Virus record (IMG/VR): IMGVR_UViG_3300040751_004089
Span: 1-46,431 of that record
Strand: one strand, 5' to 3'
From: a virus
DNA length: 46,431 nucleotides
Part shown: one piece after another, positions 20,944 to 37,009 of the stretch
How positions within the stretch are numbered: the first letter of the stretch is position 1
How the letters are laid out: every line of letters begins with the position of its first letter
The notes under the pieces: model-generated
The model's input: only the letters and a program-made list of their open reading frames with translations
What the model was told of the DNA's origin: nothing
Database searches by the model: none
Program-made: the position numbers and the translations under genes

Positions 20944-21735
20944 GTGAGCGTAGTTAAAGGCTTTAGTGATTTTGTTCTAAACGAAGACAAGGTAGGTTCC
21001 TTTTATAACGATGAACTTAATCCCAAGTTTTGGGATAAGTACAAAACTAAAGACGGAAAGGAAGAATGGGTCTTTGATAGAATAGTAAGGAAAAAACTTC
21101 TTAAGATTGCTGAAGACTTCTATGAAAAGTATGAGGATCTTCTGGGAGATCTCCCTATATCAGATATACAGCTCACTGGATCCTTAGCTAATTTTAACTA
21201 CACCGATAAATCGGACCTTGATGTACACGTCTTGGTAGATTTTAATAAGATAAAATCCAAAAGGGATATTGTTAAAGCTGCAGTGGATGGAGTAAGGTTC
21301 GTTTGGAACCTCAGACATGATGTTATCATTAGAGGTCATGACGTAGAACTTTATCTTCAGGATGTTCACGAACCACATACAGCTTCTGGTTTATATTCTC
21401 TTATGGATGATAAGTGGATACGTAAACCAAAGTTTGATCCACCAGAAGTTGACGAGCATGATGTTAGGAAGAAGTTCGATGGATTTGCTTCTGAAATCAA
21501 CCAAATGGAATCTAAACTTGTTACATCCTCTGCTTTGCCTGACAATGCAAAAGAGATGTACAAGCGTCTCTTGAGGATCAAGGAGAAGATTCAAAAGATG
21601 AGAAAAGATGATCTTGCCAAGGATGGTGAGTTCTCTGTGGGTAACCTAGCCTTTAAAATGCTCAGGAATGAGGGATATATAGGTAAAATAATAGATCTTA
21701 TTTCTAAAGCTTACTCTAGGATCTATTCAGAATAA
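20944..21735 (+). CDS. nucleotidyltransferase (Pol beta superfamily) with capsid-targeting-type N-terminus
   Basis: The GTG start is set by promoter spacing and by the N-terminus VVKGFSDFVLNED. That segment resembles the T4 internal-protein targeting peptide (F..F..E, cut after LNE). Residues 78-95 (TGSLANFNYTDKSDLDVHVL) are the nucleotidyltransferase motif GS...DxD with Asp91 and Asp93; Glu135 in DVELYLQD is a likely third metal ligand. The C-terminal ~80 residues are helical and charged. By family it could transfer an NMP to an RNA, protein or small molecule. If packaged, it would act early in the new host, like T4 Alt. The target is unknown. Confidence 0.75.
   Translation: MSVVKGFSDFVLNEDKVGSFYNDELNPKFWDKYKTKDGKEEWVFDRIVRKKLLKIAEDFYEKYEDLLGDLPISDIQLTGSLANFNYTDKSDLDVHVLVDFNKIKSKRDIVKAAVDGVRFVWNLRHDVIIRGHDVELYLQDVHEPHTASGLYSLMDDKWIRKPKFDPPEVDEHDVRKKFDGFASEINQMESKLVTSSALPDNAKEMYKRLLRIKEKIQKMRKDDLAKDGEFSVGNLAFKMLRNEGYIGKIIDLISKAYSRIYSE
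21674..21684 (+). promoter_or_regulatory. late-type promoter motif inside the nucleotidyltransferase gene (GATATATAGGT)
   Basis: GATATATAG lies 76 nt before the ATG at 21750, within the 3' end of the preceding gene. The spacing resembles the motifs inside genes at 7916 and 25174. Confidence 0.4.
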
Positions 21736-21749
21736 TAAAAAGAAAGACA

Positions 21750-24482
21750 ATGTTATTAGTATTCAGAAAAGGATTGGAATATGATGGTAGCATGAACGGC
21801 GAACCGTCGGACAAAGAAGCCAATATATTTCCACTAATGTCTTTGCCTCTAGATATGGAGGGAGAAGAAACGGATTTAAATGATTTCCAGTGGTGGGCAT
21901 ATTCCGATAAATGGAAAGAGTGGCTAGAAGATAATCCTAGAGAATGGCAAGCAGAATCTAAAGCCTCTGACTTCGATAAAGCTGAAGCTATGCTGGAGAG
22001 CATGGTTACTTCTAAGGGGGGTATTACTGAATATGTCTCAAGTCAGATTAAGAATATCTGGAATAATGGTAAGGTATCTTCATTTAGTGATTATGTGAAG
22101 CTTTTGGAAGCAGAGGGTGAATCAGGATCCTCTGAGTCATTCAAAAAGTTTGTAAAGCTCGGGTTTGCTCTTGAAAAACTTGCTAAAGATGGCAAGCTGA
22201 AAGACAAACTAAAAATGGAAGATCTTGAGGAAGGCAAGGAATATTCAATTGTTATAGATCCTATGACAGAGGAAGGAGATCCTATCCAAGAAGCAAGACA
22301 AGCTATTAGAATTAAAAAACTGGACGAGTCCGCAGGTTTTATCCTTGCAGATTTCGACTACAGCATTCCTGTTGGAGAAGTTAAAGATACTGAAAGTTAC
22401 CTCGATAAGGTTTCTGAGTTTGCGAAGGATGTTGCTATAGCAGGAGCAGGCTTTGCAAGTCTTTATGCTGCTGCTTATATTGGCGGGGGTCTACTATCAT
22501 CTTGGGTCTTAATGAAGTCAGCACGTGGCGTTTATAGAACCTTTTCAAGAGGTAGAAGAATATATGGCGCGGTCCAAGCAGCTAGAGGCTCGTCTGCTAT
22601 TAGAGGCGGATTTTCAGCTGTAAAAAACTTTGCAACTAGAGCATTTGGTAGAAGAGCAGCTCAAGGAGCTTTAACTAATGCCGCAAGAATAACTTTGCCC
22701 TCTGGTGCTTTTGTTGAGGGTGGACTTGCTTATTCAACAAGGGCTACTGGTAATGTTCTTTTAAAGGGAGCAGCAGAACAATCGGTTAAAGCTGCAGCAT
22801 CAAGAGCAGTTGCACAAGGCGGTGCTCGTGCAGCAACCGCTATAGGTGCAAGGGCAGCAGCCGGGGCAGGAGCAGGTGCTCTTGCTGCAGAAGCATCTAA
22901 TCCTGTTGGATGGATTATGTTAGCTGTTCAGGTTGTAGGTTCTGGAATAAACCAGCTTTGGAATTGGTACAGCGATAAGCAGGCACCTAGATATGGTGAG
23001 GTTGAAGATTTTGCTTATGGTACATTTAAGCCTAAAAATATTCCTATTGGAAAATCAATCACTGTTTGTTGGACAAGCGACGGAGGAGCAGGCTGGGGTG
23101 AATACATCTTGGATATAATAACAATGAGCAAGGATGACACAAGGACTACTATGGAGATAGTTAAGATTGGTGAATTTGACGGTAGATCTATTTTCATGGT
23201 TTTGCAGATTAATTCGGAAAGGTTCCAGAAAGCTTTGCAAGATAACGATCTAATGCTTATGTCATTTAGCAATAGTGATGTATTTGAAAGGGGATACATA
23301 GATAATGATGATTTGGAGTTCCAAACAATCCTAATCCCAGACATCACCGAGATTACAATCGCTACTTCATTTGTTGGTTATTCAACCTGGGACGAAATGG
23401 AGGAGGCTTATAATAAAGCCCCAGACAATCCAGTATATGTTCCAAAGGATGCTAAGAAAACTTACGAATTCCATTATGTGGATTCTGAGGGCAGGGATGT
23501 AAACGTAACTGGTAGTCTTGTTAGTGCAAGTGAACTTGAGGGAAGTGTGTTAAAAGAACTTATACCTGGTGAAGCAGATGCTGTTGAAGAATCTTTTGAC
23601 GGATCAAGAGAATTTGGTGATCTTTTAAACGAAAGTAAAGTGGTTTCGTTCTCTGATTTTTCTATGAGAACCTCTAATTTAATAAAAGAGGAAGAAAATG
23701 AAGATCCTGCACAAGCAGAAGAAAAACCAGCAGAGCAGGCAGAAGAGAAACCAGCAGGGCAGACAGAAGAAACCCCAGCTGAAGATGAAAACGAGGAACT
23801 AGAAGGATATGAGGCTGAACTTGATGAGGTAATCAATTCTGGGGCTGGCTTAAAGAAAACATCTTATTCTAGAATTCCGATTGTTTCTTATACGGTAAAT
23901 ACAATCAATTTTGTAGATCCTAATATCAATGAATCCCCTGAGGAATTTTCATACTTCTTAGTTGGTGATCAAAGTTTAGACCCTAAACCAAACCAGCCTA
24001 TTTTGGTAGAGTCTGCTTCTGAGGATCTAATTGGAGAACCAAGATTCGGTTTGAAAAAATACGTACCACCTACTGAGGAAGATGGAGAAGGTACTATTGT
24101 AGAACCAGATGAGGAAGTAATTGATATAGAGGATGTTGATAAGGAAAGAACTAAAATTTCTACCAATCGTGCTGATGTACAGATAAAGAGCGGTTCTAGA
24201 TCTCTTTCGATTAAAGATCGAGATATCGAAGGCGGTATAAGCATCCTCGACGAGTTTGGAAACGACGCTCTCAAGAGGGATCTTAATATTGAAGATTGGA
24301 AAGAGGTTTCTAGTGTCAAGGTAAGAGAAGATAGTGATGGTGAACCAATCAAAGTAATACTTAAGAATAGGTTTGCAAAAATGGGTGATAGAAGAAGGGT
24401 TCTTAGAAAAGGAGAACAAGGATTCAACACTGCACTGAAATTTGCTAACTCGGTTGAGGATGGTATATCTTTCTCTGGATAA
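21750..24482 (+). CDS. large mosaic virion/internal head protein with internal targeting-like segments, 910 aa
   Basis: I do not recognise the whole protein. The first ~105 residues are Trp- and acid-rich. Residues about 108-121 (GKVSSFSDYVKLLEA) look like a capsid-targeting peptide with an LxE cut site. Residues about 225-410 are Ala/Gly-rich and hydrophobic with basic patches (AIAGAGFASLYAAAYIGGG; later NPVGWIMLAVQVVGSG), plausibly membrane-active. A beta-rich domain follows. Near residue 630 a second targeting-like block occurs (LNESKVVSFSDF), then an acidic Glu/Ala/Pro linker and a C-terminal domain. The arrangement suggests a polyprotein cut by the prohead protease, or fused internal proteins. 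Confidence 0.65.
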   Translation: MLLVFRKGLEYDGSMNGEPSDKEANIFPLMSLPLDMEGEETDLNDFQWWAYSDKWKEWLEDNPREWQAESKASDFDKAEAMLESMVTSKGGITEYVSSQIKNIWNNGKVSSFSDYVKLLEAEGESGSSESFKKFVKLGFALEKLAKDGKLKDKLKMEDLEEGKEYSIVIDPMTEEGDPIQEARQAIRIKKLDESAGFILADFDYSIPVGEVKDTESYLDKVSEFAKDVAIAGAGFASLYAAAYIGGGLLSSWVLMKSARGVYRTFSRGRRIYGAVQAARGSSAIRGGFSAVKNFATRAFGRRAAQGALTNAARITLPSGAFVEGGLAYSTRATGNVLLKGAAEQSVKAAASRAVAQGGARAATAIGARAAAGAGAGALAAEASNPVGWIMLAVQVVGSGINQLWNWYSDKQAPRYGEVEDFAYGTFKPKNIPIGKSITVCWTSDGGAGWGEYILDIITMSKDDTRTTMEIVKIGEFDGRSIFMVLQINSERFQKALQDNDLMLMSFSNSDVFERGYIDNDDLEFQTILIPDITEITIATSFVGYSTWDEMEEAYNKAPDNPVYVPKDAKKTYEFHYVDSEGRDVNVTGSLVSASELEGSVLKELIPGEADAVEESFDGSREFGDLLNESKVVSFSDFSMRTSNLIKEEENEDPAQAEEKPAEQAEEKPAGQTEETPAEDENEELEGYEAELDEVINSGAGLKKTSYSRIPIVSYTVNTINFVDPNINESPEEFSYFLVGDQSLDPKPNQPILVESASEDLIGEPRFGLKKYVPPTEEDGEGTIVEPDEEVIDIEDVDKERTKISTNRADVQIKSGSRSLSIKDRDIEGGISILDEFGNDALKRDLNIEDWKEVSSVKVREDSDGEPIKVILKNRFAKMGDRRRVLRKGEQGFNTALKFANSVEDGISFSG

Positions 24483-24513
24483 AAAAACGTCAATTTTTCT
24501 GAAAAAGAAAATC

Positions 24514-24524
24514 GATATATAAAG
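24514..24524 (+). promoter_or_regulatory. late-type promoter motif GATATATAAAG
   Basis: The motif lies 34 nt before the protease-scaffold ATG at 24548. No other late-type motif lies immediately upstream of the capsid gene at 26578, so this promoter and the one at 25174 probably serve it too. Confidence 0.7.
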
Positions 24525-24547
24525 TTAAATAATAGTAAAGTCAAGAA

Positions 24548-26554
24548 ATGAACGAGTCTTTATTGAATGAAAACCTCCTTTTTATTCTTGAAAAACAAGA
24601 TAATAATCTTGATGTTTCAAAGGATGGTGCTGAAAATGGCTATGTACTGAAAGGTATAGCAGCTCAATTTGGCAAGGAGAACAATAACAATAGAATATAC
24701 GAGGAAGGTGAATACTTGCCTCACCTTGAATATCTAAAGGATAAGATAGGACAGAAGAGATTGGTTGGTGAATTAGATCACCCCGAAAAATTCGATGTCT
24801 CTCTTAAAAACATTTCTCACGTTGTTGAGGATCTAGTTTATGATAAAGACGGAAGAGTATTAAACATTAAAGTTCGTTTGCTTGACACTCCGGCAGGACA
24901 AATTGCTAAAAAGCTTGTTGATGCTGGTATACCTCTTTCTATTTCATCTAGAGCAGCTGGAAATGTTGGTCCGGATAAGAAAGTCCAGATCAAAAAAATC
25001 TTTACATATGATCTAGTAGCTGATCCTGGTTTTCAGGACGCACAGCTCGAGAGGGTTTACGAAAGCGCTGGTTTTGATGCTTTTGAATTTGAAGAAAGAT
25101 CAAAAAAGTCTGTAGTAAACAACTTAGAGTGTGTAAACGAATCGCTAGGGCTAGAAAATGAATCTAGTGTAAAGATATATAAAGTTGAAAATAGCGAAGA
25201 ATTCGAAAAAATCCTTAATCAAGACAAAAATAAATCCAACATTATGGAGGCCAACAAAGAATATGTTACTGCTGACGAGCTTAACAAGTATTCTATCTTT
25301 TTGAAAAATAAGATGGATGAGCTGGAAACGCAGATTTCTGAAATGAAACAACAAGAAGCTCAGGTATCTGAGAGTGAAACTGACAGTGTAGACTGTAAAG
25401 CTCTGGAAGAAAGAGTTGCTAAACTTGAAAAGTATTCAGAATATCTTGCTGAAAACCTAGAGAGTGCTATTAAGTACGGTGAGTACCTAGCAGAAAATCT
25501 AGATAGCAGCATTACTTATTCGAAGTATTTAGCTGAAAACCTAGATAAGACTATTTCTTATTCTAAGTATTTGGCTGAAAATGTTGATAAGGGTATTTCA
25601 TATTCAGAGTACGTGGCTGAAAATGTTGATAAGGCAATCGATTATTCTAAGTATCTTGCTGAAAAGCTAGATGATGGAATTCAATACACAGAGTATGTTG
25701 CTGAGAATCTTGATAAGAACATCGCTTATTCAGAATATCTAGCAGAGAATGTTGATAAGAACATTGCTTACTCTGAATATTTGGCTGAGAATCTTGATAA
25801 AGGAATTTCTTATTCTGAATACCTTGCAGAAAACCTTGATAAAGGTATTGCTTATTCTGAGTACATCGCAGAAAAGCTTGATCAAGGTATCAACTATACA
25901 GAGTACCTTGCAGAAAACCTAAACAAAGGAATTGCTTACTCTGACTATTTGGCTGAAAAACTAAATGGTAATATAGCTCAAACTGAAGCTATTCACGAAA
26001 GTGCTAAAACTCAAGTTTCTCCTTCTCTAAATGAGAACGCAAGAGAAACTGCTGAAAGCGCTTCAAAAACTGAATTGGTCGAATCAGGATTTGCTGGAGA
26101 TTACGAAAATCTCGGAAGCAAAATTGATTCTCTAATTGAATCGGTCAAGACACAAAAGACTGAGGAAAATATAAACGAGGCTAATACGAAAGTACAGCCA
26201 ACTGCTCAAACACAAAAAGCAGATGAGGCAATCAACGAAGCCGAAGAAACTGTGGTAGAATCATCAGGTCACAAATTTATTGATGAAATGCCAGAAGATT
26301 ACGCTCCGATTTGGGAGTCACTAAATGAAAGCCAAAAGCAATCAATCATTGCACAATCAGCTTTCTATAATTTAGAGACAAACTATCAGATCAAGAATTT
26401 CTGGTCAACTCGTCAGCTTGGTGCTAAGCCAGTAGGTTTACAGAAACTTCAAGAAAGCCAAGAAACACCAGAGCCTAAGACGGCTTCAAACCCTCAGGGG
26501 TACTCAAATGATTACCTTAATTGGGTCGCTAAGTCGCTCGAAGGTAAGTTTTAA
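24548..26554 (+). CDS. 21: prohead protease (T4 gp21-like) fused to a repeat-rich scaffold domain
   Basis: Residues about 30-172 are a T4 gp21-type (S80) serine protease: GELDHPEKFD contains the catalytic His78, and LSISSRAAGNVG carries the catalytic Ser (133 or 134), as in T4 GELNHP and VSSRGLG. After a linker, residues about 233-295 are coiled-coil. Thirteen 14-residue repeats then run from residue 296 to 477, and a Glu/Ser/Thr-rich region leads to a conserved-looking C-terminus. T4 encodes protease and scaffold (gp22) separately, so this is a fusion. An internal ATG at 25244 (Met233), preceded by a late-type motif at 25174, could produce free scaffold. Confidence 0.82.
   Translation: MNESLLNENLLFILEKQDNNLDVSKDGAENGYVLKGIAAQFGKENNNNRIYEEGEYLPHLEYLKDKIGQKRLVGELDHPEKFDVSLKNISHVVEDLVYDKDGRVLNIKVRLLDTPAGQIAKKLVDAGIPLSISSRAAGNVGPDKKVQIKKIFTYDLVADPGFQDAQLERVYESAGFDAFEFEERSKKSVVNNLECVNESLGLENESSVKIYKVENSEEFEKILNQDKNKSNIMEANKEYVTADELNKYSIFLKNKMDELETQISEMKQQEAQVSESETDSVDCKALEERVAKLEKYSEYLAENLESAIKYGEYLAENLDSSITYSKYLAENLDKTISYSKYLAENVDKGISYSEYVAENVDKAIDYSKYLAEKLDDGIQYTEYVAENLDKNIAYSEYLAENVDKNIAYSEYLAENLDKGISYSEYLAENLDKGIAYSEYIAEKLDQGINYTEYLAENLNKGIAYSDYLAEKLNGNIAQTEAIHESAKTQVSPSLNENARETAESASKTELVESGFAGDYENLGSKIDSLIESVKTQKTEENINEANTKVQPTAQTQKADEAINEAEETVVESSGHKFIDEMPEDYAPIWESLNESQKQSIIAQSAFYNLETNYQIKNFWSTRQLGAKPVGLQKLQESQETPEPKTASNPQGYSNDYLNWVAKSLEGKF
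25174..25184 (+). promoter_or_regulatory. late-type promoter motif inside the protease-scaffold gene (GATATATAAAG)
   Basis: The sequence GATATATAAAGTTGAAAATAG closely matches the gene's own promoter region at 24514 (GATATATAAAGTTAAATAATAG). It lies 70 nt before the in-frame ATG at 25244. Confidence 0.45.
25433..25978 (+). repeat. 13 tandem 42-bp repeats encoding YSEYLAENLDKGIA
   Basis: Thirteen uninterrupted 14-residue units occur (first YSEYLAENLESAIK, consensus YSEYLAENLDKGIA, last YSDYLAEKLNGNIA). Fourteen residues equals two heptads, so a long coiled coil is expected. DNA copies have drifted at third positions while the protein pattern is kept, showing selection on the peptide. Confidence 0.9.
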
Positions 26555-26577
26555 AATCTAAAAAATATCTAAAAAAG

Positions 26578-28299
26578 ATGAAACTAATCAACGAAGCAGA
26601 AATCTTCGAAACCTGGTCTCCTATCATCGAGCAGAAGGCTGGAATTCAAGATGCTGAGAAAAAAGGATGGTTGAGCAAGTACTGCCACTACCATTCATTA
26701 AACGAGTCTGCTGGAGCTTACCAGTCTCTAGCAACTGTAAACGGTATGGGTGCCGTACAACCACCCGCATACCCAGGTGGGTATAACTCAACTGGTTCTG
26801 CAGTAGGTACGCAAGCTAACGCAGCTTTCTACAACTCTGCTAACCAAGGTTCAGGAGATAAGTTTCCTTCACTTCTTCCTTTGGCAATTCAGGTTGCTGC
26901 GAAGACTGTTGGATTCGATATCGTTCCTGTAATTCCTATGTCAGGTCCTACTGGCGTACTTTCTTACCTAGATTACGTATATTCAGGTGGTAAAATCAGC
27001 CCAGCATCAGCTGGTACAACTGCAGCAGATGCTCTTGCAACTGCACCATCTATGATCAAGGTACAATTGACTAGCCCAGCTTCTGGATATCCTGGAGATT
27101 TTGCAGTAGGTACTACTTACTACATCACTAACGCTTCTTCAGCTGGTGCATACATCACTACTGAGTTTGTTGGTCTATCTAGAATTGATGCATTCCCAAT
27201 CTTTAGAGTTATGGGATTAACTGCTGGCGAGACTATCTCTGACGTTCTTGATGGTGGTGCTACTAAAATTGGTACTGCAGTAGACGGTGCTCAAGCAGGT
27301 ACTACAACTGCAAGAGCAGAATTGGTAAAAGCTCTTGAGGATCACATCCAAGGATTCTCTGGTGCTGGTTTCAACAACGACCAAGACTGGCAAGGTCCAT
27401 TCGTAGACGGTACTAAGACTTACAACCCAATGCTAAGAGGTGTTGGTGAGAGCACTTACTACCAATCAATGGGTCTTTCAACGTTCACTAAGTTCGTTGA
27501 AGCTGATACTTTCCAAGTAGCTGCTTCAGTAACTACTGAGCAAATCCAAGACTTGAACAAGCAGTTTGGTATCGACGTTATCTCAATGATCGAAAATGCA
27601 TTGGTTAACGAAGTATCACAAGCTATCAACAAGCACATCCTTTCTAGAGCATTTGCTCTCGGATGGTCTAACCACGACGAATTCTTAACTACAGAAGGAC
27701 AAAACTTGAACTTAAACCTCGTTATCGGTGGTACTGCAGGTTCTTACACTATTCCTTCTTACGTAGGTAAGTCTGACACTGGTCTTACAATCGCATCTGT
27801 TGCAGGTCCTGCTTCAGGAGGATACGAGAACTTGTCAACTCTACAGAGAAGACTATTCTCTAGAATCTTAGCTTCTGCTAACGTAGTAGCTAACAGAGGA
27901 AGAAGAGGTCCTGCTAACTTCATCGTTACTAACGCTAACGTTGCAAGTGCATTGCAAGACATCTCTCAGTTCACTTTTGCTCCTTTCTCTAACACTCTTA
28001 CTCAAAACAACGGAACACTTTACCCAGTAGGTTCGCTTGCAGGTATGACCGTTTATGTTGATCAGAACATGAAGTTCGGCGATAACAGAGTACTAGTTGG
28101 AAGAAAAGGTGGTGACGACGAACCAGGACTTAAGTTCATGCCTTACATGATGGCTGAGTCTATCCAAACAATCTCTGAAGGTACTATGTCACCTAAGATT
28201 GCGGTTAAGTCTCGTTACGCTCTAGTAGAAGCTGGTTTCCACCCAGAAACTATGTACTTCTGTTTCCACGTGAACGTTCCTGCTGGAGGTCTATCCTAA
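26578..28299 (+). CDS. 23: major capsid protein (T4 gp23-like)
   Basis: The protein directly follows the prohead protease-scaffold, is 573 aa, and has the gp23 layout. The N-terminal propeptide MKLINEAEIFETWSPIIEQ resembles T4 gp23 'KAELLNKWKPLLE'. Then comes LPLAIQVAAKTVGFDIVPVIPMSGPTG (compare the T4 IP.LIAFDICGVQPMNSPTG block), and the end is rich in HK97-fold features (ISEGTMSPKIAVKSRYAL). A gp21-type cut is predicted after LNE (Glu43), leaving about 530 residues. Codons favour AAC, TAC and TTC far more than neighbouring genes, as expected for a highly expressed gene. Confidence 0.92.
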   Translation: MKLINEAEIFETWSPIIEQKAGIQDAEKKGWLSKYCHYHSLNESAGAYQSLATVNGMGAVQPPAYPGGYNSTGSAVGTQANAAFYNSANQGSGDKFPSLLPLAIQVAAKTVGFDIVPVIPMSGPTGVLSYLDYVYSGGKISPASAGTTAADALATAPSMIKVQLTSPASGYPGDFAVGTTYYITNASSAGAYITTEFVGLSRIDAFPIFRVMGLTAGETISDVLDGGATKIGTAVDGAQAGTTTARAELVKALEDHIQGFSGAGFNNDQDWQGPFVDGTKTYNPMLRGVGESTYYQSMGLSTFTKFVEADTFQVAASVTTEQIQDLNKQFGIDVISMIENALVNEVSQAINKHILSRAFALGWSNHDEFLTTEGQNLNLNLVIGGTAGSYTIPSYVGKSDTGLTIASVAGPASGGYENLSTLQRRLFSRILASANVVANRGRRGPANFIVTNANVASALQDISQFTFAPFSNTLTQNNGTLYPVGSLAGMTVYVDQNMKFGDNRVLVGRKGGDDEPGLKFMPYMMAESIQTISEGTMSPKIAVKSRYALVEAGFHPETMYFCFHVNVPAGGLS

Positions 28300-28364: not shown

Positions 28365-28381
28365 GATATATAGTATAAATG
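28365..28381 (+). promoter_or_regulatory. late-type promoter GATATATAGTATAAATG
   Basis: The element lies 30 nt before the ATG at 28395 and 11 nt after the capsid terminator, marking a new transcription unit for the internal-protein cluster. Confidence 0.75.
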
Positions 28382-28394: not shown

Positions 28395-29495
28395 ATGAGT
28401 AGAATTAAATCACATAAGCAATTTTTAGTCGAGAGAGATCTTTCACAAGAGGTTGATCAGGTTGTTCTTGCTGAGATGCTCTTAGAATATTACAATATTA
28501 ATGAGGGTAAGGCTTTAGATACCCTTAAAAATAGTGTATCTAAAGCTCTATTAGGGCCCTTTTCGAGATTGTCAGTTATTGATACTATTAGAAAGGGAAA
28601 TCTAGATATCCAAAAAGAAATCATAACCAAGCAATACGACGTTGAAGATGAGGTTCTTGATCTAGAAGGTAAGATAGATGACCTTAGGAGCAAAGGTGCA
28701 TCAAGGAATGATATTGCCAGAATTCGTACCCAAATCGAGAGGAAGAATAAGGAATTCCGTTCTTTTGTTAAAATGAAGAGGGAACAGATGAATAAAGGGA
28801 TGAAACTCCTGGAAAAAACCATTGGTAAAAACCCTAGGAGAAAGGAATATTACGAGGCAGGTTTCATCGACGATAAGTATGACCTTGCTAAATTTGAATA
28901 TGAGTTAGCTCAAAAGAAATCCAGCGATCAAGATAGTATTAAAAAGCTAAAATCCGATTTGGAAACAGCATCGAAGAAGGCAGAGTCTTTTGCTTCTAAA
29001 ACTAAGGAATCCTCTAAGAAAGAAGCTTCTATTAAAGATGCAGATCTTGGGGATCTTTCGCAGATTAGAAAAAATGTTGGCAGTAAGGATCTTGGGGTGG
29101 TTGTCTCATTAAGGGAAAAATCAAGAGCAAAGATTAAGGATTTGAAGTCTAGCATGTCAAAAGTGCTTTCTGACATTAAGTCTTTTATGTCAAAGTCTCC
29201 CTCTTACGATGAGGTTCAGAAATCCGGAAAGATCTCTAATGGTATAAAAGATTTGGAGGAAAGTGCTAACGAGCTTGATTCACTGGAGAATTTAGTATCT
29301 GTTTATAGCAATGTAATTAGTAATAAGGGAAAGGATCTTTCCAACGAATCTTCTTTGACCTCCCTTTTTTCTAAAATTAATAATGCAATTAATGACGGAA
29401 ACGATGCGGGGTCTGGAATAACCAAGGAGGTAATTGATCTTAAATCTGATATAACCCTTAAAAAGGTTGGTAATCTAATAAAAAAATTAGCCTAA
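28395..29495 (+). CDS. probable internal head protein, Lys-rich helical, 366 aa
   Basis: The N-terminus SRIKSHKQFLVERD matches the capsid-targeting pattern of T4 internal proteins (aromatic/Gln/Phe core, then VE at the cut). The remainder is helical and Lys/Ser/Asp-rich, with coiled-coil segments (VLDLEGKIDDLRSK; IRTQIERKNKEFRSF). The basic, heptad-rich composition suits a protein packed among DNA inside the head. It heads a four-gene cluster of similar proteins after the capsid gene. No enzymatic motif was seen. Confidence 0.65.
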   Translation: MSRIKSHKQFLVERDLSQEVDQVVLAEMLLEYYNINEGKALDTLKNSVSKALLGPFSRLSVIDTIRKGNLDIQKEIITKQYDVEDEVLDLEGKIDDLRSKGASRNDIARIRTQIERKNKEFRSFVKMKREQMNKGMKLLEKTIGKNPRRKEYYEAGFIDDKYDLAKFEYELAQKKSSDQDSIKKLKSDLETASKKAESFASKTKESSKKEASIKDADLGDLSQIRKNVGSKDLGVVVSLREKSRAKIKDLKSSMSKVLSDIKSFMSKSPSYDEVQKSGKISNGIKDLEESANELDSLENLVSVYSNVISNKGKDLSNESSLTSLFSKINNAINDGNDAGSGITKEVIDLKSDITLKKVGNLIKKLA

Positions 29496-29496
29496 C

Positions 29497-30390
29497 ATGT
29501 TGTTAAGTTTTAAACAGTGGGAGTCACAAAACATAAATGAAAAAGATGGTGGTCTGGATAAGATCATGAATTGGCTGAGTTCTAATTTTGGGGGTACAAT
29601 TTCTAAGATTGATTCATTGCTTTCTGATATCAATTCTATTGAAACCCAATATTCAAAAGAATGGAATGATATACAAACTGACATAGATGCTTTGGAGGTT
29701 AAAAAGGCACAAACCAAAAGCGATCCTGCTGAAGCTAAAAAATTGGAAAGAATGATCGATAGGAATCAAAAACTTCTTTCAGCTTTGGGCAAGAAAAGGA
29801 AAGCTGATATAGAAAAGATTGATAGCAAAGTCGAGAAGCTTACCAAGGGTAAACAAAGACTTATTTCTTATTGGAATCTTAAGAAATCTGAACTTGAAGC
29901 AGACTTAGCAGAGAAGCTATATAAGATGGCTAAAAGTTTAACCGACGATTCAATTGCTGATGAGTTATATGATAAGTATAAAAAAGCAGCTTTAGATGCT
30001 AAGAGTAAGGATGAGAAATTTAGGGAAAAATTTGGTAAGCTAGATCTTGCTAAGCCATCTACTCTAAAATCAGATGCTGAATCAAGAGTAATCTCGAGTG
30101 CTAATTTTTCAATGGATCCTATATTTTCTATGAATGCACCACAGTTTACCAAATTTGTGCAAGATCTAGAAAAAAGCCAAGTGGGTGCATTAATTAAAGC
30201 TATGCAATCTGAAAGGAATGAAAGATATGCCACTTTAGATACCGAAAGGGATAGACTGGAAGCTCAAGCTAAAAAGAAAGGATTGTCTGCTGATAGTGTC
30301 AAAAAGGATATGTCTGATTTAAGAGAAACCTTAATGAGAAAAATTAGAGATCTCAGAACTAAAATAACTATTGCTAGAAGATATGCTTAA
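29497..30390 (+). CDS. probable internal head protein, coiled-coil, 297 aa
   Basis: The protein starts LLSFKQWESQNINEKDGG, a capsid-targeting-type segment ending in INE. Most of the rest is Lys/Asp/Glu-rich coiled coil (IDALEVKKAQTKSDPAEAKK; RDRLEAQAKKKGLSADSVKK), resembling the neighbouring internal-protein candidates. The gene starts 1 nt after the previous stop and overlaps the next ATG by 8 nt. Function inside the head is unknown. Confidence 0.65.
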   Translation: MLLSFKQWESQNINEKDGGLDKIMNWLSSNFGGTISKIDSLLSDINSIETQYSKEWNDIQTDIDALEVKKAQTKSDPAEAKKLERMIDRNQKLLSALGKKRKADIEKIDSKVEKLTKGKQRLISYWNLKKSELEADLAEKLYKMAKSLTDDSIADELYDKYKKAALDAKSKDEKFREKFGKLDLAKPSTLKSDAESRVISSANFSMDPIFSMNAPQFTKFVQDLEKSQVGALIKAMQSERNERYATLDTERDRLEAQAKKKGLSADSVKKDMSDLRETLMRKIRDLRTKITIARRYA

Positions 30391-30652
30391 GCACATTAAG
30401 AAACTTGAGGAATTCCCTTTGTTTGAGGGCGTAAATGAAGATCTGGTGAAAGCAAAAGCAGACGTTAATGCTAAGCAGGCGGAAATTGCTGAGGAAATTG
30501 CAAAGCAAAAGGAAACCACGGATTTGAAACAAAAAGCAGCTAGTATCAGGAACCAAGCAAGATTGGTTGGTCAAATGCCAGCTCTACTAAATGCTTTAGC
30601 TAATGCTATGGACGCAAAGGCTGACTCTGGCGATACAACAAATATTTATTAA
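30383..30652 (+). CDS. small probable internal head protein, 89 aa
   Basis: The ATG at 30383 overlaps the previous stop (ATGCTTAA). The N-terminus LKHIKKLEEFPLFEGVNED fits the targeting pattern, with a VNE cut site. The rest is one Ala/Lys-rich helical stretch (AKADVNAKQAEIAEEIAKQK). An upstream in-frame TTG is possible but less likely. Confidence 0.55.
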   Translation: MLKHIKKLEEFPLFEGVNEDLVKAKADVNAKQAEIAEEIAKQKETTDLKQKAASIRNQARLVGQMPALLNALANAMDAKADSGDTTNIY

Positions 30653-30654
30653 AG

Positions 30655-33039
30655 ATGTCAAACAATTATCTTAGAAATAACCCAGTAGCAAATCAATTAT
30701 CCATAGATACCTTTAGACTCTATGAGAATAAGGATGTTGACGATGCGTTGAAAATATCAATTGACACTCTTTTAGCAGCGTGTAAGAAGATTATTTTTGA
30801 TTTTGCTTCTGACCGAAACAGAACGTATGAGTCTTTTGCAAAGAAGATAGAAATGATTAGTGATACATCTACCATCAAGGGATTGATTGCTAATATAAAA
30901 GATGCTTGTGAAGATACTGAATTGCATGATTCTATTCTTGCACCTCTCAAAAAATCTTATTTGGATTCTATCGATCTAATTGGTGATGCAATTAAAAGAA
31001 TGGTTGAACTTGACCCATCCCTCGAGTCAAAAGCTATCCAAAATTTTAAATCTGCTGGAAAAAGATTGGTTGAGAGTGTAAAGAGAACTGCTGATGAGTA
31101 CCAGGAGAAATTGAACGAGTCTAATGAGATTGGAGTTCCTGGAAGAGTTCATAGACTGAAGAAAATGCTCATTAACCACATTGTCGATTCTAAAGGTAAG
31201 GATGCAAAGTCTGGATATGGTAGAGATTGGCACAGACTTTTTTCAACTTTAGCACAAAAGCTTTCTTCTATCAATAGTGATAAAGCTACTTTCTCTGACA
31301 ATGACAGAAAAACACTTGCTGAACTTGAAAAGAAAACCGATAACCTTGCACAGGAATATGCTCAGTACTCTGTTAAAGCGGTAGAGTCTATTATGTCAAA
31401 ACTTATGAAGGACGATGACTTGGAAGCCAAGTTTTCAGATTTCTTTGAGATGATGACTAACGCTTTAGACAAAGTTACTAAATCTAATACGGATGAAGGC
31501 CTAATTGAAGTAAAGGTTAGAGAAGATTTGGAGGACAAAGAAACAAAAATGAATGATAGAGTTTTCCCTCTAAAGATTGGTGACAAGGATAATGATACAA
31601 AACTTAAAGGTTCTGGGCTAATCTCTGCTGTACAAAAAGCACTTATTGATTCATTTGTGCCAATTAAAAACCTAATGGATCCAAGAGGTGGTGCTAACGG
31701 TAAGTATGAAACTGCAACTGAAGTCGCAGTGAAGTCAATCCAATCTACCTTAGGTAATAAGGACGTAAATGGAAAATTGGATAAGCCATTGCTTGACATA
31801 ATTCTTAAGCTGGATCAAGTATCAAAAGAAAATAAGGAGGCTATCAAGGAAGCGATCAGCCAACTTAGGGGTTCTTATTCTTCTGTGAGAGAATCTAGTA
31901 ATGCATTATCAGCTGCTGATTTCATGAGGCTGATGGAGGCTATGACTTATATTGATCCCAATGAGATAGAGGCTAATATCAAGAATTACAGTCAGGAGCT
32001 GGCTGAAGATGATGAATCGATGTCTCAACCAACAACCTCTGATTATTCTTTAGCTGAAGCCCTTGCTAAAATTTTAAGAACTAAGGATTATAACAAAAAT
32101 GTAGAAGCTGAAGATTTCTTGAAAGAGGATGGAACTCTAAAAGGATCATGCCCTCACGATTATGTTGATTGCTGGACCAAGGCAGTTTCTGGGGATAAGC
32201 CAGTTTCTTTCTTTGTTATGGTTGATGATAATGACAACTGTTCTCTTTTCCCGACAAAAAGAATCTCCGGCAGTGTAAACAAACCTTGCAACTGGAAAAG
32301 GTATAAATCTATTGCAGGTGACGACATAGAGGATGTCCACAAATTTGGAAATTGGTACACCTCGTACTGGAAAAATTTTGGTGGTGTAGGTTCTGAGATT
32401 AAGTCTAAAGTCTTGGATGAGGTAATGTCATCGAATTGTAAGCTTGCTAAGGAAGAGAACCTAAGTGATGTTGCTGCTATTTACGAGGAGTTAGAGGGAG
32501 CTTTTGTTCCAAACAAGGATGAAGTTGCAGGAGGTTATATTAGGCCAAATTCTATGAGATCCTTGGTATCTAGCATTAAAGGTATGGTAGGTAATGATGG
32601 TATATCCAATCTTAGTCCTGGGGAGCTCAGAGCTTTGTACAACACCGTAATTGTGTGTTCACCTATGATAACTTATAATAGAGACAAAGATGAATGGGTC
32701 CCTGCAGTAAAGATGCTATGTAATTCCTTGGACATAACCGAGGATGAGCTTATTTCTGATATAAGAAAGAATGGATCACTTGGTAAGAGCGGAAAAATGT
32801 CTGTTGAAAAGGTAGCTTTGTTTGATACCAATTCTGGAGACAATGAAATATTAAAATCCACTATAATCGGAACCACAGAAGATCCAGATAAGGTAAATGT
32901 TATGAAGGAGAGCCTGGGTAAGGTTAAGCCAATTATGAACAGCCTTTCTAAACACTGTAAAAGAATCGGTGTAGATAGAATGGATGATATTACTCCGGAT
33001 ATCTCTGACTCGATGATCGTTATAACAAGAGAGGGATAA
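30655..33039 (+). CDS. large probable internal head protein with peptidoglycan-binding-like domain, 794 aa
   Basis: The N-terminus includes LSIDTFRLYENKD, a possible targeting segment. Residues 30-310 are helical. Residues about 313-385 (GSGLISAVQKALID ... GKYETATEVAVKSIQSTLGNKDVNGKLDKPLL) resemble the PG_binding_1 fold, with 'AVQ..L', 'G.(Y/F)...T..AVK..Q' and 'G......L' in order. The C-terminal half has a Cys/Trp-containing globular domain (PHDYVDCWTKAV ... NKPCNWKRYKS). If packaged, the peptidoglycan-binding-like module may act during DNA delivery; otherwise this may be a structural protein. A hairpin follows the stop. Confidence 0.6.
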   Translation: MSNNYLRNNPVANQLSIDTFRLYENKDVDDALKISIDTLLAACKKIIFDFASDRNRTYESFAKKIEMISDTSTIKGLIANIKDACEDTELHDSILAPLKKSYLDSIDLIGDAIKRMVELDPSLESKAIQNFKSAGKRLVESVKRTADEYQEKLNESNEIGVPGRVHRLKKMLINHIVDSKGKDAKSGYGRDWHRLFSTLAQKLSSINSDKATFSDNDRKTLAELEKKTDNLAQEYAQYSVKAVESIMSKLMKDDDLEAKFSDFFEMMTNALDKVTKSNTDEGLIEVKVREDLEDKETKMNDRVFPLKIGDKDNDTKLKGSGLISAVQKALIDSFVPIKNLMDPRGGANGKYETATEVAVKSIQSTLGNKDVNGKLDKPLLDIILKLDQVSKENKEAIKEAISQLRGSYSSVRESSNALSAADFMRLMEAMTYIDPNEIEANIKNYSQELAEDDESMSQPTTSDYSLAEALAKILRTKDYNKNVEAEDFLKEDGTLKGSCPHDYVDCWTKAVSGDKPVSFFVMVDDNDNCSLFPTKRISGSVNKPCNWKRYKSIAGDDIEDVHKFGNWYTSYWKNFGGVGSEIKSKVLDEVMSSNCKLAKEENLSDVAAIYEELEGAFVPNKDEVAGGYIRPNSMRSLVSSIKGMVGNDGISNLSPGELRALYNTVIVCSPMITYNRDKDEWVPAVKMLCNSLDITEDELISDIRKNGSLGKSGKMSVEKVALFDTNSGDNEILKSTIIGTTEDPDKVNVMKESLGKVKPIMNSLSKHCKRIGVDRMDDITPDISDSMIVITREG

Positions 33040-33057
33040 GCTAGAAACTTATCCCCC
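33033..33057 (+). terminator. hairpin overlapping the stop codon, probable terminator
   Basis: The arms gggataag (33033-33040) and cttatccc (33048-33055) have a 7-nt loop and are followed by cccctttctt, a weak T-rich tail. Confidence 0.55.
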
Positions 33058-33092
33058 CTTTCTTCCTATAATTCATTGAAAATCTTTTTTTA

Positions 33093-34028
33093 GTGAATAA
33101 CCTTGGTAAGTTTTATTTTCTAACTTTCTGTAGTCTAGGTCCACCCCATGATTCTGGACAGGATTTAAGTAAAAATATTTCCAACATCAAGACACTCCTT
33201 GGTCACTACTTTGACGATATAATTTTTTACACCCCGTCAAAACTTAAAGAGTGTGATGGTAGTGATGACTTCTGCAATGTCCTTGATGGTGTTTTCCCGC
33301 TCAACCCTGGTATCAATTCCAATGGATGTGGGGATTTTAAATCTTTTATTATTGACAAGACCTTGTCCGAGATTGACGAGAATGATGTACTGTTTTACCA
33401 CGACTGTAACTTCGAGAAGTATACACAATATTGGCAGACGGACTGGGAAAATATTAGGGAATCTATCGATTTTTTGCTGACCCAAAATAAATCTGATTTT
33501 TTCATTCCTTTTGAAAGTGAAGCTTTTGGTCAGATTCCACAAGTAAGATTACACGGAAAAAGATATACAACCGAAGCTATTTTAGAAGATCCTGTGGAAT
33601 CTGATATAGTTTCTAGATGCTGGGAAATAGCTTCGAATCGGATGATTATAAAAAACACCCAAGCATCCAGGGATTTCTTTTCTGATTATAAAAATCTTTG
33701 TGGAAGGAAGGACCTTCTCATGAAATATCCAAACCCAGATCCATACCCTCAATTCACACACAGCTGCCCTGAACAGCATGTTCTAAATTGTCTAATCTAC
33801 AAATATATTTTGGATGGAAAACTAGATCCTGAGTTTCCAAGATTTTCTTTCCCGAATAGAAAATTTATCTTAAATTCTGGTGTTGAAGTAAGAGTAAACT
33901 CTGAATTGTCGAAATATATGCAAACCAAGTCGATAAAAGAGTTTGAAAGAAGAAAAACAACTAATGGAATCAAAGATCAAGATATTCGAGGGACCAAGGA
34001 ATTCGGGCAAGACCTTTTTAGCACGTAA
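33093..34028 (+). CDS. glycosyltransferase-like protein, 311 aa
   Basis: The best start is GTG at 33093. The protein has a GT-A-like layout: an N-terminal strand GKFYFLTFCSLGPPHDSG, later IDENDVLFYHDCNFEKYTQYW, where the Asp-rich 'HDCN' region could be the metal/nucleotide-sugar site, and a mid-region EAFGQIPQVRLHGKRY. No family was named with certainty. It opens a three-gene cassette with a P-loop kinase and asparagine synthetase, and another glycosyltransferase-like gene lies at 37101. Possible substrates are virion proteins, DNA or host surface sugars. Confidence 0.4.
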   Translation: MNNLGKFYFLTFCSLGPPHDSGQDLSKNISNIKTLLGHYFDDIIFYTPSKLKECDGSDDFCNVLDGVFPLNPGINSNGCGDFKSFIIDKTLSEIDENDVLFYHDCNFEKYTQYWQTDWENIRESIDFLLTQNKSDFFIPFESEAFGQIPQVRLHGKRYTTEAILEDPVESDIVSRCWEIASNRMIIKNTQASRDFFSDYKNLCGRKDLLMKYPNPDPYPQFTHSCPEQHVLNCLIYKYILDGKLDPEFPRFSFPNRKFILNSGVEVRVNSELSKYMQTKSIKEFERRKTTNGIKDQDIRGTKEFGQDLFST

Positions 34029-34512
34029 GTATTCTGAGGTACATAGCATTCCGATCTTTAAGTTCGATTTTGTTGGCTGGTTCAACAGGCTTTCTTTGGA
34101 TGACCAATCACACGAGACCCACAGCTTTGCTCTAGGCAAAGAGTTAATGCTATTGCAATTGTGTCGAGATGGGTTGCTACCTACTTTTATATTAGATCGT
34201 GGATTTCTAACAGTTCTTACTTGGGGAATACTCTCTGGCCGTATTACTGAAGATGAGGCAATGAATCAATTGAAAATGATTGCTGAAGAGGGATTGCTTA
34301 AAGATTGTGAAATCTATTTTGTAACTGGTGACAATCCAAATAAGGGGGACAGAAACAAGGATAATTGGGATTTTAGGGATGGGGATTCAAAGGAGCAAGA
34401 GATTATGGAAAATCTGAGAGACTATGTTATGAATCAACCATACAATGTTTATGTCCATCGGATATTCAACAGCTTTGATAATAAAACAGTAAACGACTTA
34501 AGTCATATCTAA
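33964..34512 (+). CDS. P-loop kinase, nucleoside/nucleotide-kinase-like, 182 aa
   Basis: The ATG at 33964 overlaps the previous gene by 65 nt, in another frame. Residues 4-18 (IKIFEGPRNSGKTFL) are a Walker A motif, and FILDRGFLTVLTW resembles the 'DR' element of thymidylate and deoxynucleoside kinases. A lid-like polar stretch lies near GDNPNKGDRNKDNWDFRDGD. It probably phosphorylates a nucleotide or related small molecule; substrate unknown. It ends directly before the asparagine synthetase gene. Confidence 0.6.
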   Translation: MESKIKIFEGPRNSGKTFLARKYSEVHSIPIFKFDFVGWFNRLSLDDQSHETHSFALGKELMLLQLCRDGLLPTFILDRGFLTVLTWGILSGRITEDEAMNQLKMIAEEGLLKDCEIYFVTGDNPNKGDRNKDNWDFRDGDSKEQEIMENLRDYVMNQPYNVYVHRIFNSFDNKTVNDLSHI

Positions 34513-35913
34513 ATGTGTGGAATAGTAATCACAAAAACACCAGGTGAAGAAATACTGGATACTATAAAACATCGGGGCATTGAAAAAACCGTTGTTGAAA
34601 AAAACGGACTTAGTATTTGCCACCATAGACTTCCAATCCAGACCGTTGATGGTGATGATTGGAATCAACCAATAGAGATAGCAGAAGGCATCTATTTGCT
34701 TTTTAACGGGGAGATTTTTAACTATGACCGTGAAAGATTTGATTCTGACGTAGAATATCTTACTAATATTTTCGGTAGGTATCGTGGAGGGAGCTTTGAA
34801 ATGTTTTGTTCTTTGTTTATACCAGAAATCCAAACTTGGGATGGATTTTGGGCAATAACGATATATGATGCAAACACTAATGATGTTATTGCTTTTACCG
34901 ACCCTCTAGGACGTAAATGTCTTTATTATAATTCTCTTGGTGATATTGCTTCGGAGATAAAACCCCTTGTGTATGAAAATTCTCAGATAGACGAGACCTT
35001 TATCAGCACGGTAAGAAAATGGGGGTACAACACGGATGAAAGGACATCTTATAGTGATATCAAAAGGATACTACCAAATAACATATACAGTTTTAATTTA
35101 GATGCCCCTGAATTTAAGAATGTGTATAGCACCTATTATAGAGGCTTTGATTTCCCGATCCAAGAATTGGTTGGTAAAAGCTACGAAGAGCACATGGAGT
35201 GGCTTTGGTCTAAAATGTTCGAATCAGTAAGGAACAGATTGGTTTCTAAGGATTATCCTATATCTCTTCTTATTTCAGGTGGACTAGACTCCTCTATTAT
35301 TGCATCCGTTTTAAATGAAATTGGAGCTGATGTTAGATGGTTTAGCATTGAAAATGGGGAAAAAGAGTTTGTAGACATTCTCTCTGAAAGACTTGGTAAG
35401 GAGGTTTCTTTTTTAGATTACAACATGGATGAATCTATGAATGAGGAGATTTATAAAAAATGGAACGAGTCACCAATAGACCTTGGATCTGTTATACCAC
35501 AGTATCATTTGTTTGATGCTGTTAAGAGGTTTGGTGGTTACAGAATAGTTCTCTCTGGAGATGGAGCTGACGAGCTTTTCGGTGGGTATAAAAGAATCCA
35601 CGAATATGATTCACAAAAGTCAGATGTATTTGACGAGTTAACTTACTACCATTTGCCAAGATTGGATAAGATGTCTATGGCTCACACCTTGGAACTTAGG
35701 AGTCCCTTCTTGAATCTAGATCTTGTAAGATTTGCTTTGCATTTACCTATAGAGTGGAGGACTGATAAGAAAATCCTTAAGGACACATTTTCACCACTGC
35801 TTCCTGATGAAATAGTAAACCGGAAAAAAGCACCTCTTAAAAACCCTAAGATTAAGGAGGATAAAATTGCTTACCGGTATAAAGCAGTAGATCTTTTTCT
35901 GAGGAATAGATAA
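34513..35913 (+). CDS. asparagine synthetase (glutamine-hydrolysing), AsnB-like
   Basis: Cys2 is the glutaminase nucleophile in MCGIV, followed by LLFNGEIFNYD (ammonia/glutamine site). The synthetase half has the PP-loop SGGLDSS (residues 255-261) and the SGDGADELFGGYKR signature, then SPFLNLDLVRF near the end. Length (466 aa) is shorter than E. coli AsnB (554 aa) but both domains are present. It normally makes asparagine from aspartate, but a phage homologue could amidate another carboxylate. It starts immediately after the kinase gene (TAA then ATG). Confidence 0.85.
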   Translation: MCGIVITKTPGEEILDTIKHRGIEKTVVEKNGLSICHHRLPIQTVDGDDWNQPIEIAEGIYLLFNGEIFNYDRERFDSDVEYLTNIFGRYRGGSFEMFCSLFIPEIQTWDGFWAITIYDANTNDVIAFTDPLGRKCLYYNSLGDIASEIKPLVYENSQIDETFISTVRKWGYNTDERTSYSDIKRILPNNIYSFNLDAPEFKNVYSTYYRGFDFPIQELVGKSYEEHMEWLWSKMFESVRNRLVSKDYPISLLISGGLDSSIIASVLNEIGADVRWFSIENGEKEFVDILSERLGKEVSFLDYNMDESMNEEIYKKWNESPIDLGSVIPQYHLFDAVKRFGGYRIVLSGDGADELFGGYKRIHEYDSQKSDVFDELTYYHLPRLDKMSMAHTLELRSPFLNLDLVRFALHLPIEWRTDKKILKDTFSPLLPDEIVNRKKAPLKNPKIKEDKIAYRYKAVDLFLRNR

Positions 35914-35928
35914 ATTCGTCTAAGGAGC

Positions 35929-35939
35929 GATATATAAAG
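35929..35939 (+). promoter_or_regulatory. late-type promoter motif GATATATAAAG
   Basis: The motif lies 24 nt before the ATG at 35953, returning to head-protein genes after the metabolic cassette. Confidence 0.65.
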
Positions 35940-35952
35940 AAAAAAGCTCCAA

Positions 35953-36627
35953 ATGGCAAATAATATTAAGTCCTTTGAGGATTTTAAATCTGAGTCTGTT
36001 AATGAGAATTGGTTCAGTGATAGTCTAAGTGGTTTACTTGGCTATGCTGGAAATGCTTTCTCTGACGTTTTAAAGGGAAAAGCCTCTGCATATCTTTTAA
36101 GCTTCTTTGGAATTGGTGAACAATCAATCTTCAGTAAGCTTGTACAAAACTTTGTTGAACAAATCCCAGTTGCTGATTTAACTAAAATTATTTTTGCAGG
36201 AAAGGCTAATTCCGCTTACCTTGCCCCTAAGATGGCTGATGCATCAATTGAATTCTTGACTGAAAAGGGTTTAGATGGTATCGCTCAGGATCTTGGTATT
36301 GAGCAAGATGGGTGGATTTATAGAACAATCTCTGAAATGCTTACTAACCAAGTTAGAAGGGAGAACTTTAGAAATTCTTTGGAAGAATTTTATTTACAGG
36401 CTTTTAACGGGTTTGAAGGTGCTTCGGACAAGGAAGATTTTATGAGATCCCTTTCATCAACAGAGGAAAGAACACTAAGGAGTGGAATCGATAGAGTGGT
36501 AGGTGCTAAAGGTGAAGATGTAGATAGGTCTTCTGGAGACTTTGTATCCGATTTTCTTTCTAGGTTATCTGGAAATGGGCAATCACTGCAATCTTTAGGA
36601 TTAAGCTCTGGTGGAACTATACAATAA
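35953..36627 (+). CDS. probable internal head protein, 224 aa
   Basis: The N-terminus ANNIKSFEDFKSESVNENWF is among the clearest capsid-targeting-type segments here (F-E-D-F, then VNE). The mature part is helical with hydrophobic stretches (LLGYAGNAFSDVL; ASAYLLSFFGIGEQ) and ends in a Ser/Gly-rich tail. No enzyme motif was recognised. It has its own late promoter and is followed 13 nt later by another targeting-type gene. Confidence 0.6.
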   Translation: MANNIKSFEDFKSESVNENWFSDSLSGLLGYAGNAFSDVLKGKASAYLLSFFGIGEQSIFSKLVQNFVEQIPVADLTKIIFAGKANSAYLAPKMADASIEFLTEKGLDGIAQDLGIEQDGWIYRTISEMLTNQVRRENFRNSLEEFYLQAFNGFEGASDKEDFMRSLSSTEERTLRSGIDRVVGAKGEDVDRSSGDFVSDFLSRLSGNGQSLQSLGLSSGGTIQ

Positions 36628-36640
36628 AAATTTTTAGATC

Positions 36641-37009
36641 ATGAATATAAATGACGTTTCGAAGAGGGAAGTTTTAGACTTCGATCAATTTAAGAAAAAA
36701 GTACACGATGAGACATTTAAGCCTTTTGCTGCTGAAAATCAAGAGGGCGGTGAAGGTAAAACTGGCTTGCATAAGATAAAAAGAGAACCTGCTTATGATT
36801 GGGTTGGCTATGCAGATGCAGTATTTAGCCCAGAGAAAGCTGGTATTGAGGTACCTGGTTACAATGCTGATGGAGATAGAGAGTACAACATTGCTAATGC
36901 AGGTCCATCTATTGTGAATGCACCAAATTCTGCTCAAACTCTTTCTAGTGCACTTGGTGAATCTGAGATCAATGAATCTTTTTCCATAAAGAGACTAGAG
37001 GATTTTTAG
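36641..37009 (+). CDS. small probable internal head protein, 122 aa
   Basis: Near the start VLDFDQFKKKVHDE fits the targeting pattern, and a second possible cut (FAAE) follows. The middle is Gly/Pro/Asn-rich and likely flexible. The extreme C-terminus INESFSIKRLEDF repeats the Phe-rich pattern in reverse order. The gene ends at a strong terminator. Function unknown. Confidence 0.55.
   Translation: MNINDVSKREVLDFDQFKKKVHDETFKPFAAENQEGGEGKTGLHKIKREPAYDWVGYADAVFSPEKAGIEVPGYNADGDREYNIANAGPSIVNAPNSAQTLSSALGESEINESFSIKRLEDF

Follow-up and report, generated by a model that had tools for sequence, protein, structure and literature searches.

The 46,431-base linear virus record IMGVR_UViG_3300040751_004089 of IMG/VR (here the window, meaning the whole stretch of DNA that was analysed) comes from a huge phage whose head is of the T4 type, and several proteins encoded around its protease and capsid genes carry a short tag resembling the capsid targeting sequence (CTS) of phage T4. 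We read these segments as T4-type capsid targeting sequences, belonging to a system that appears to have expanded to roughly 15–30 proteins per contig, with C-terminal and internal versions, and we give this reading a probability of about 0.8. Its parts differ in strength: both the tag and its expansion are very probably genuine, the tagged proteins are likely to be packaged into the head, and entry of at least part of the cargo into the host is plausible. The putative tag is a 7-residue element near [IVL]-[KL]-x-[FL]-x-[DE]-[FW], then a variable spacer, and then Phi-x-E, most often LNE, INE or VNE. Element, spacer and cut motif are common to otherwise unrelated proteins, are kept in orthologs, occur many times per genome and stand on T4's three internal proteins (IPs).

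Among annotated phages, the nearest are LR756500 (462 kb, 46%) and the Lak megaphages (about 540–550 kb, 40%), followed by uncultured phages of 630–735 kb (30–31%) and by cultured ones such as Tenacibaculum phage PTm1 and PAU (31–33%). Of 210 confirmed IMG/VR loci, the 80 best, whose major capsid proteins (MCPs) are 71–99% identical, supplied the orthologs; some of them lie on contigs of 230–434 kb. The relatives scored included G001 (434 kb, 620 genes), G003 (373 kb, 504 genes), G006 (230 kb, 298 genes) and LR756500 (623 genes), with a matrix built from the distinct 7-mers of six families (31, 32, 30, 20, 29 and 26). In leave-family-out scoring the matrix never saw the family under test, and the threshold was 8 bits or more. 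All features of the window described below are on the plus strand.

Tags at the N-terminus

A sequence-only reading of this DNA had named six proteins with aromatic-rich N-termini followed by an xE site. All six open reading frames (ORFs) are present where it placed them (the 30383 protein is listed from a TTG at 30371, with the ATG at 30383 in frame), and five of the N-termini are conserved in orthologs; the sixth, that of 36641, lacks a conserved E. The five are VKGFSDF-VLNE of the nucleotidyltransferase-like protein 20944–21735 (tag at 20944..20985), IKSHKQF-LVE with a second conserved site INE37|G (28395..28505), LLSFKQW...NINE (29497..29541), IKKLEEF...GVNE (30383..30439) and IKSFEDF...SVNE (35953..36006; the protein gave no tblastn match to annotated phages at E 0.01). 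In ortholog alignments all five (29497 among the rows listed) retain the hydrophobic or aromatic core and the downstream Phi-x-E while the spacer varies, from 0 to 7 residues in 20944, 1 to 10 in 29497 (again among the rows listed) and 0 to 13 in 35953; constant ends around a variable middle are as expected for a tag plus a cut site. Distinct orthologs reaching at least 8 bits in leave-family-out scoring number 41 of 43 for 35953, 20 of 23 for 30371, 36 of 51 for 28395, 21 of 45 for 20944 and 16 of 49 for 29497, and by these fractions the last two are the weakest of the five. In the structure model of 20944 (predicted local distance difference test (pLDDT) 80.9 for the whole), the tag is disordered, with residues 1–15 below 50. 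A further, degenerate tag, ALTFQLF-GKINE of the protein 39034–39954 (tag at 39034..39087), was absent from the sequence-only reading and is assigned from its family, which was never in training: 11 of 14 orthologs are tagged (e.g. VLNFKDFILNES), and the window's copy scores only 3.0 bits. Positions 4 and 7 are hydrophobic or aromatic in these five N-termini and in the 39034 family, residue classes that the extraction itself imposed in part, and a cut motif of the [L/I]-x-E type lies downstream, coupled to the element. The proposed likeness to T4 capsid targeting sequences holds for the element and the Phi-x-E motif, and the matrix recovers T4 IPI–III.

Could composition alone explain the pattern, N-termini rich in M, K, F and E mimicking a motif by chance? 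The motif is short, the first examples were picked by eye, and one of the six was wrong. In the window itself, 7 of 48 proteins have an N-terminal element of at least 10 bits, against a mean of 0.25 (maximum 2) in 100 shuffles; since two of these seven (7986 and the N-terminus of 36641) were judged non-tags and orthologs of the other five had served to train the matrix, out-of-family figures and other genomes are the fairer test. At the same threshold, G001 has 33 elements among 620 N-termini, whereas shuffled N-termini give 2.26 (maximum 5 in 100 shuffles); the counts are 23 of 504 against 1.42 in G003, 16 of 298 against 1.47 in G006 and 11 of 623 against 2.39 in LR756500. Without the training families, and with expectations from internal segments, 28 remain against 1.65 in G001, 18 against 1.23 in G003, 11 against 1.13 in G006, 21 against 1.77 in LR745206 and 11 against 2.16 in LR756500. 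Among genes of at least 100 residues, scores of at least 8 bits are found in 37 of LR745206 against 5.4, 37 of LR756500 against 6.1 and 7 of T4 against 1.4, and phiKZ, with 160 kb scored, shows no excess (1 against 1.4). The element is also conserved at C-terminal and internal positions, and we regard chance as very improbable.

After background, roughly 15–30 proteins per contig would be tagged in the window's clade. The tagged proteins fall into 67 groups (61 N-terminal, 6 C-terminal), and for 35 of these an ortholog is present on some other contig; among 46 ortholog rows from outside the training families, 26 reach at least 8 bits, against 2–2.5% of internal segments. The [ILVM]NE motif lies within about 10 residues after the tag in 10 of 28 tagged proteins of G001 (16 of 492 untagged), 7 of 18 in G003 (11 of 394), 3 of 11 in G006 (1 of 233), 3 of 11 in LR756500 (12 of 523) and 6 of 21 in LR745206 (12 of 450). 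By genome-wide motif search the tagged set in relatives is thus large, which would fit the earlier suggestion of an unusually large internal proteome, with 36641 lost from it as an N-terminal member. The groups contain false positives, such as the portal 7986 (VKSLSNF, 11.1 bits), dropped when its orthologs fell to 4.5 bits; a LR756500 protein with a RecA-like look (11.5 bits) was dropped likewise, its orthologs going down to 2.6. By eye, 7986–9614 and 9624–11228 are neighbouring, similar portal-like proteins. Left out of the counts is the conserved protein 17945–18427, with a short N-terminus, MKxIKSINE, like the tag type of PAU.

C-terminal and internal elements

The N-terminus of 36641 is rigid in its 39 orthologs, and the residue following HD or MD is D in 16, E in 10, N in 10 and Y in 3; it was dropped as a cut tag. 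At the extreme end of the same protein (36641–37009), ortholog scores and alignment place the element INE-SFS-IKRLEDF (36968..37006): 34 of the 39 orthologs score at least 8 bits in their last 20 residues (IKRLSDF, IKKLSDF, ITRLKDF and others), and an S-E-S or N-E-S stretch often precedes the element. On this sequence evidence 36641 is a tagged protein, for which the sequence-only reading chose the wrong end. Elsewhere, C-terminal elements of at least 10 bits number 4 against 0.8 expected in G001, 5 against 0.6 in G003, 1 against 0.6 in G006 and 1 against 0.9 in LR756500.

Internal elements are found in the 910-residue protein 21750–24482, where ortholog hits and alignment place two: VSSFSDY at residues 109–115, extending to E120 (22074..22109), and LLNE-SK-VVSFSDF-SMRTSNLIKE at residues 625–647 (23622..23690). 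Over 45 orthologs, matches of at least 9 bits number 36 at the first site, 37 at the second and 9 at all other positions together. In an alignment of 36 orthologs with a mean column identity of 35%, E120 is invariant, and F112 (element position 4) and F634 and F637 (positions 4 and 7) are nearly so; this alignment is free of the extraction bias at those two positions. An AlphaFold model (mean pLDDT 64.7; best match to the PDB, E 0.13) places the elements (109–115 and 631–637) in regions 70–124 and 606–684, disordered between folded modules. Candidate cut sites often flank the second tag on both sides (LLNE|SKVVSFSDF...IKE). The protein is most naturally read as a polyprotein whose tags would be cut out. 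Between the elements, at 22479–22953 (residues about 244–401), lies a long, poorly modelled, Gly/Ala-rich hydrophobic stretch that by eye resembles a membrane-active ejection segment. The N-terminal tags described above occupy the position of a CTS; those of 36641 and 21750, being C-terminal and internal, are CTS-like and not CTS.

The head cluster, its alternatives and the proposed cargo

The sequence-only reading had a gp21 homologue in the same cluster, and it is there: 24548..26554 encodes an S77 (gp21-type) prohead protease fused to a scaffold, adjoining tagged genes, and scores 31.2 bits against PF03420 (gathering cut-off 27) and 1.2e-33 against PHROG 207, the head maturation protease. 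Its scaffold part (about 25412–25957) consists of 13 repeats at an exact spacing of 14 residues, each with [LVI]AE; 58 full-length orthologs have 10–14. With a predicted protease site in every repeat, cutting would break the scaffold into 14-mers. The idea that the tag is a copy of the scaffold unit (Y-x-E-Y-L-A-E, compare T4 YQEFIAE) was rejected, the repeats scoring only -2.7 to 5.2 bits. Next to the protease lies the gp23-type MCP (26578..28299; PF07068, 5.2e-41), whose maturation cut is predicted at LNE|S, following residue 43 (26698–26706): the 44 close N-termini listed have LNESA where the site is expected, with LYE in LR756500 and LNE in Lak-A2. A similar site lies near the N-terminus of most proteases listed, and some are without it. 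Scaffold repeats also occur elsewhere, standing alone or fused: LR745206 (L240, minus strand) has an 87-residue ORF of this kind, and LR756501 (L241:452) one of 210 residues with GVSGSAG repeats. Second, shorter gp21-like protease copies lie far from the head cluster in LR756500 (154846–155136), LR756501 (11437–11784, ending DPYGEENWSE) and G002 (54248–54589).

These parts suggest a mechanism. The 7-residue element would bind the prohead core, here the protease-scaffold fusion with its 13 repeated units, so that the tagged protein is incorporated into the prohead; a cut by the S77 protease at Phi-x-E, often Phi-N-E, would then leave the mature protein free in the head. Tag and scaffold pieces would leave the prohead after cutting, DNA would be packaged around the cargo, and part of the cargo would enter the host together with the DNA. 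In 21750, cuts flanking the internal elements would release separate cargo proteins.

Are the head-cluster proteins themselves cargo? Some of them (28395, 29497 and 30371) may be prohead-core components that are not injected. One alternative extends this to perhaps 35953 and 36641: like T4 gp67 and gp68, these proteins would be recruited by the tag and be degraded or structural, and only the scattered tagged enzymes would be cargo. Their genes adjoin those of the protease and the MCP, 28395 and 29497 are charged, largely helical-looking by eye and without a Pfam family above cut-off, and 28395 has its second conserved site; however, the neighbouring 20944 is enzyme-like with the same tag, and there are tagged enzymes elsewhere. 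We consider this account possible, with the odds somewhat against it.

The mature part of 20944 (20986..21735) looks like a nucleotidyltransferase from its sequence motifs and weak profiles, with a Pol-beta-type domain and a helical C-terminus; it contains GS...DLD and DVELY, which we take to be the Pol-beta-type nucleotidyltransferase motif. It matches PHROG 36119 (function unknown) at E 4.1e-38 and stays below the Pfam cut-offs for PF01909 (NTP_transf_2; 17.1 bits against 21) and PF22600 (19.2 against 27). Fold matches are weak (6xz0 at E 6.6e-4; 2rff at Z 6.5 over 106 residues, root-mean-square deviation 4.3, with unrelated helical rows higher, up to Z 9.0). Relatives outside the clade are mixed: that of LR756501, starting MLKYNSFIKEE, looks tagged, and those in Maribacter Molly_1, Caulobacter Cr30 and Synechococcus DSL-LC03 carry no convincing tag, the last two lying near replication genes.

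Among the 67 tagged groups, 30, picked by eye, were scanned against Pfam, and 14 of them reached a curated cut-off. These are an adenylate kinase (3.9e-39), tagged in all three IMG/VR relatives scored, a RimK-like ATP-grasp protein, another ATP-grasp, an exonuclease, a glutamine amidotransferase and an FMN reductase, this last with a C-terminal element, together with CHAP, lysozyme, SLT transglycosylase, three peptidoglycan-binding proteins, DUF5856 and DUF2201. NCBIfam gave clear names only to the adenylate kinase, which stayed below its cut-offs, and to a peptidoglycan-hydrolase-like C-terminus, along with a weak serine-rich match. PADLOC, run on ten tagged proteins, returned weak or general matches for three (20944, the exonuclease and the adenylate kinase) and nothing pointing toward counter-defence.

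With metabolic and wall enzymes in the set, the element might instead be a docking motif for some other phage structure or adaptor, the downstream Phi-N-E being incidental. Shared motifs of unknown purpose do occur, as LR756501 (735 kb) illustrates: DPYGEE[DE]W is encoded 41 times there (L245–L264, L241, L132) with varied codons, against 0 for a reversed control pattern. The stretches read contain 40 occurrences, spread over 33 ORFs, 17 of which have it 10–11 residues from the C-terminus, and many of these ORFs also start with a CTS-like element. The motif is on 56 stretches of 23 IMG/VR contigs and is absent from G001, G003, LR745206, LR756500 and Lak-A2; no mention of DPYGEEDW was found in the open-access literature searched. 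Against the docking explanation, the element is coupled to Phi-N-E, stands on T4 internal proteins, coincides with 'internal capsid' labels in PAU, and is coupled to an upstream element of head genes; we consider docking elsewhere unlikely.

That upstream element, GATATATA, was located by motif search about 30 bases before the start at 28365..28372, and also at 20914–20921, 24514–24521 and 35929–35936; we infer it to be a candidate late promoter. Several head genes of the window, and tagged genes in other genomes, have it upstream. When only genes preceded by 30 or more free bases are counted, it stands before 12 of 16 tagged and 45 of 240 other genes in G001, 14 of 16 and 37 of 225 in G003, 4 of 8 and 26 of 110 in G006, and 3 of 3 and 5 of 15 in the window, counts that are descriptive only, since the element was chosen from the same data. 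A broad tag pattern compared with it gives p 1.5e-4 in G001, but 0.33 in G003 and 0.59 in G006, and the T4 late-promoter consensus TATAAATA shows no enrichment upstream of tagged genes.

Several points weigh against targeting to the head by a T4-type tag. The pattern used to extract the matrix fixed the residue classes allowed at positions 4 and 7, and gene starts were taken from our own ORF caller. Many tagged proteins are without Phi-N-E (18 of 28 in G001), and of the 46 orthologs from outside the training families 20 do not reach 8 bits. In known phages, the clade matrix finds only 5 against 2.0 in KVP40 (genes of at least 100 residues), misses the tag of PAU (3 against 3.3 at 8 bits), and does not have Alt among the T4 genes listed at 8 bits; in PAU, gp1 and gp10, both labelled 'internal capsid vertex protein', and gp70 are without that phage's tag. 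Adenylate kinase or ATP-grasp enzymes would be unexpected inside a capsid, and packaging and cleavage in this clade are predictions from sequence.

How far might the system reach? A single address peptide, independent of position (N-terminal, C-terminal or internal), might load tens of different proteins into each head. Many would be enzymes, one would be a polyprotein cut inside the prohead, and the virions of huge T4-type phages would deliver a ready-made host-takeover set; DPYGEE[DE]W may be a second, clade-specific address of related purpose in LR756501. We see the chances of this reading as evenly balanced. If it is true, the internal proteins of uncultured huge phages can be predicted from a short sequence rule, which flags those of their hundreds of unknown genes whose products probably travel in the head and may be the first to reach the host; because T4 internal proteins block type IV restriction enzymes, the rule would yield ranked candidate first-response effectors. 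C-terminal and internal packaging signals would join T4's N-terminal one, and the non-DNA contents of very large heads would become directly testable by proteomics.

One more protein of the window deserves mention: that at 3504–6272 has 922 residues with many NE motifs, and matches only in LR756500 and Lak-A2 among the loci compared.

Comparison with known systems

Internal proteins and the CTS are themselves classical; what is new is how many proteins are tagged and that the element also occurs C-terminally and internally, and no paper on this tag set in uncultured huge phages was found in the one open-access library searched, where hits for capsid targeting sequence were judged by title. SPN3US and phiKZ, in the excerpts available (PMC10052503, PMC5694885, PMC13282480), likewise have many packaged head proteins, a prohead protease and propeptides thought to target, but differ in an AxE motif, in propeptides mostly of 111–254 residues and in about 80% of head proteins being uncut; the clade's elements are short and its sites mostly [LIV]xE.

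PAU also has an N-terminal tag on many genes and a gp23-type MCP (PMC5646251, in part). In its record (NC_019521), the pattern MKx[LIVN]xx[LMF][YF]E describes 19 of the 289 N-termini and turns up once internally in 61,561 residues; outside PAU it stands at the N-terminus only in LR745206 (2), with none in eight other sets. Four of the five 'internal capsid protein' genes are tagged (hypergeometric 6.5e-5), two of them far from the head cluster, and the record states no basis for the label. The differences are that PAU has another consensus, missed by the clade matrix, and that its protease and scaffold are separate genes.

T4 is among the closest known systems. A matrix that never saw T4 places ipI, ipII and ipIII among ten T4 genes of at least 8 bits, and IPI–III and Alt, which gp21 cuts in T4, in the portions available of PMC9026906, PMC5694885, PMC12373910 and PMC9391042, share with the clade a short element, aromatic positions 4 and 7, Phi-x-E and an S77 protease in the head cluster. 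Targeting in T4 acts mainly via CTS residues 4 and 7 and processing via 8 and 10, and the CTS has been suggested to let T4-like phages package various proteins (both from an excerpt of PMC9026906). At least 10 IPs are reported in T4 relatives, with Ip1–3 blocking different type IV restriction enzymes (PMC12373910, in excerpt). In a further likeness, T4 Alt is processed at both ends. Whereas those sources give T4 four such proteins, the window's clade would have roughly 15–30 per contig, on varied enzymes, and unlike T4 it has spacers reaching a dozen or more residues, conserved C-terminal elements and, in one protein, internal ones.

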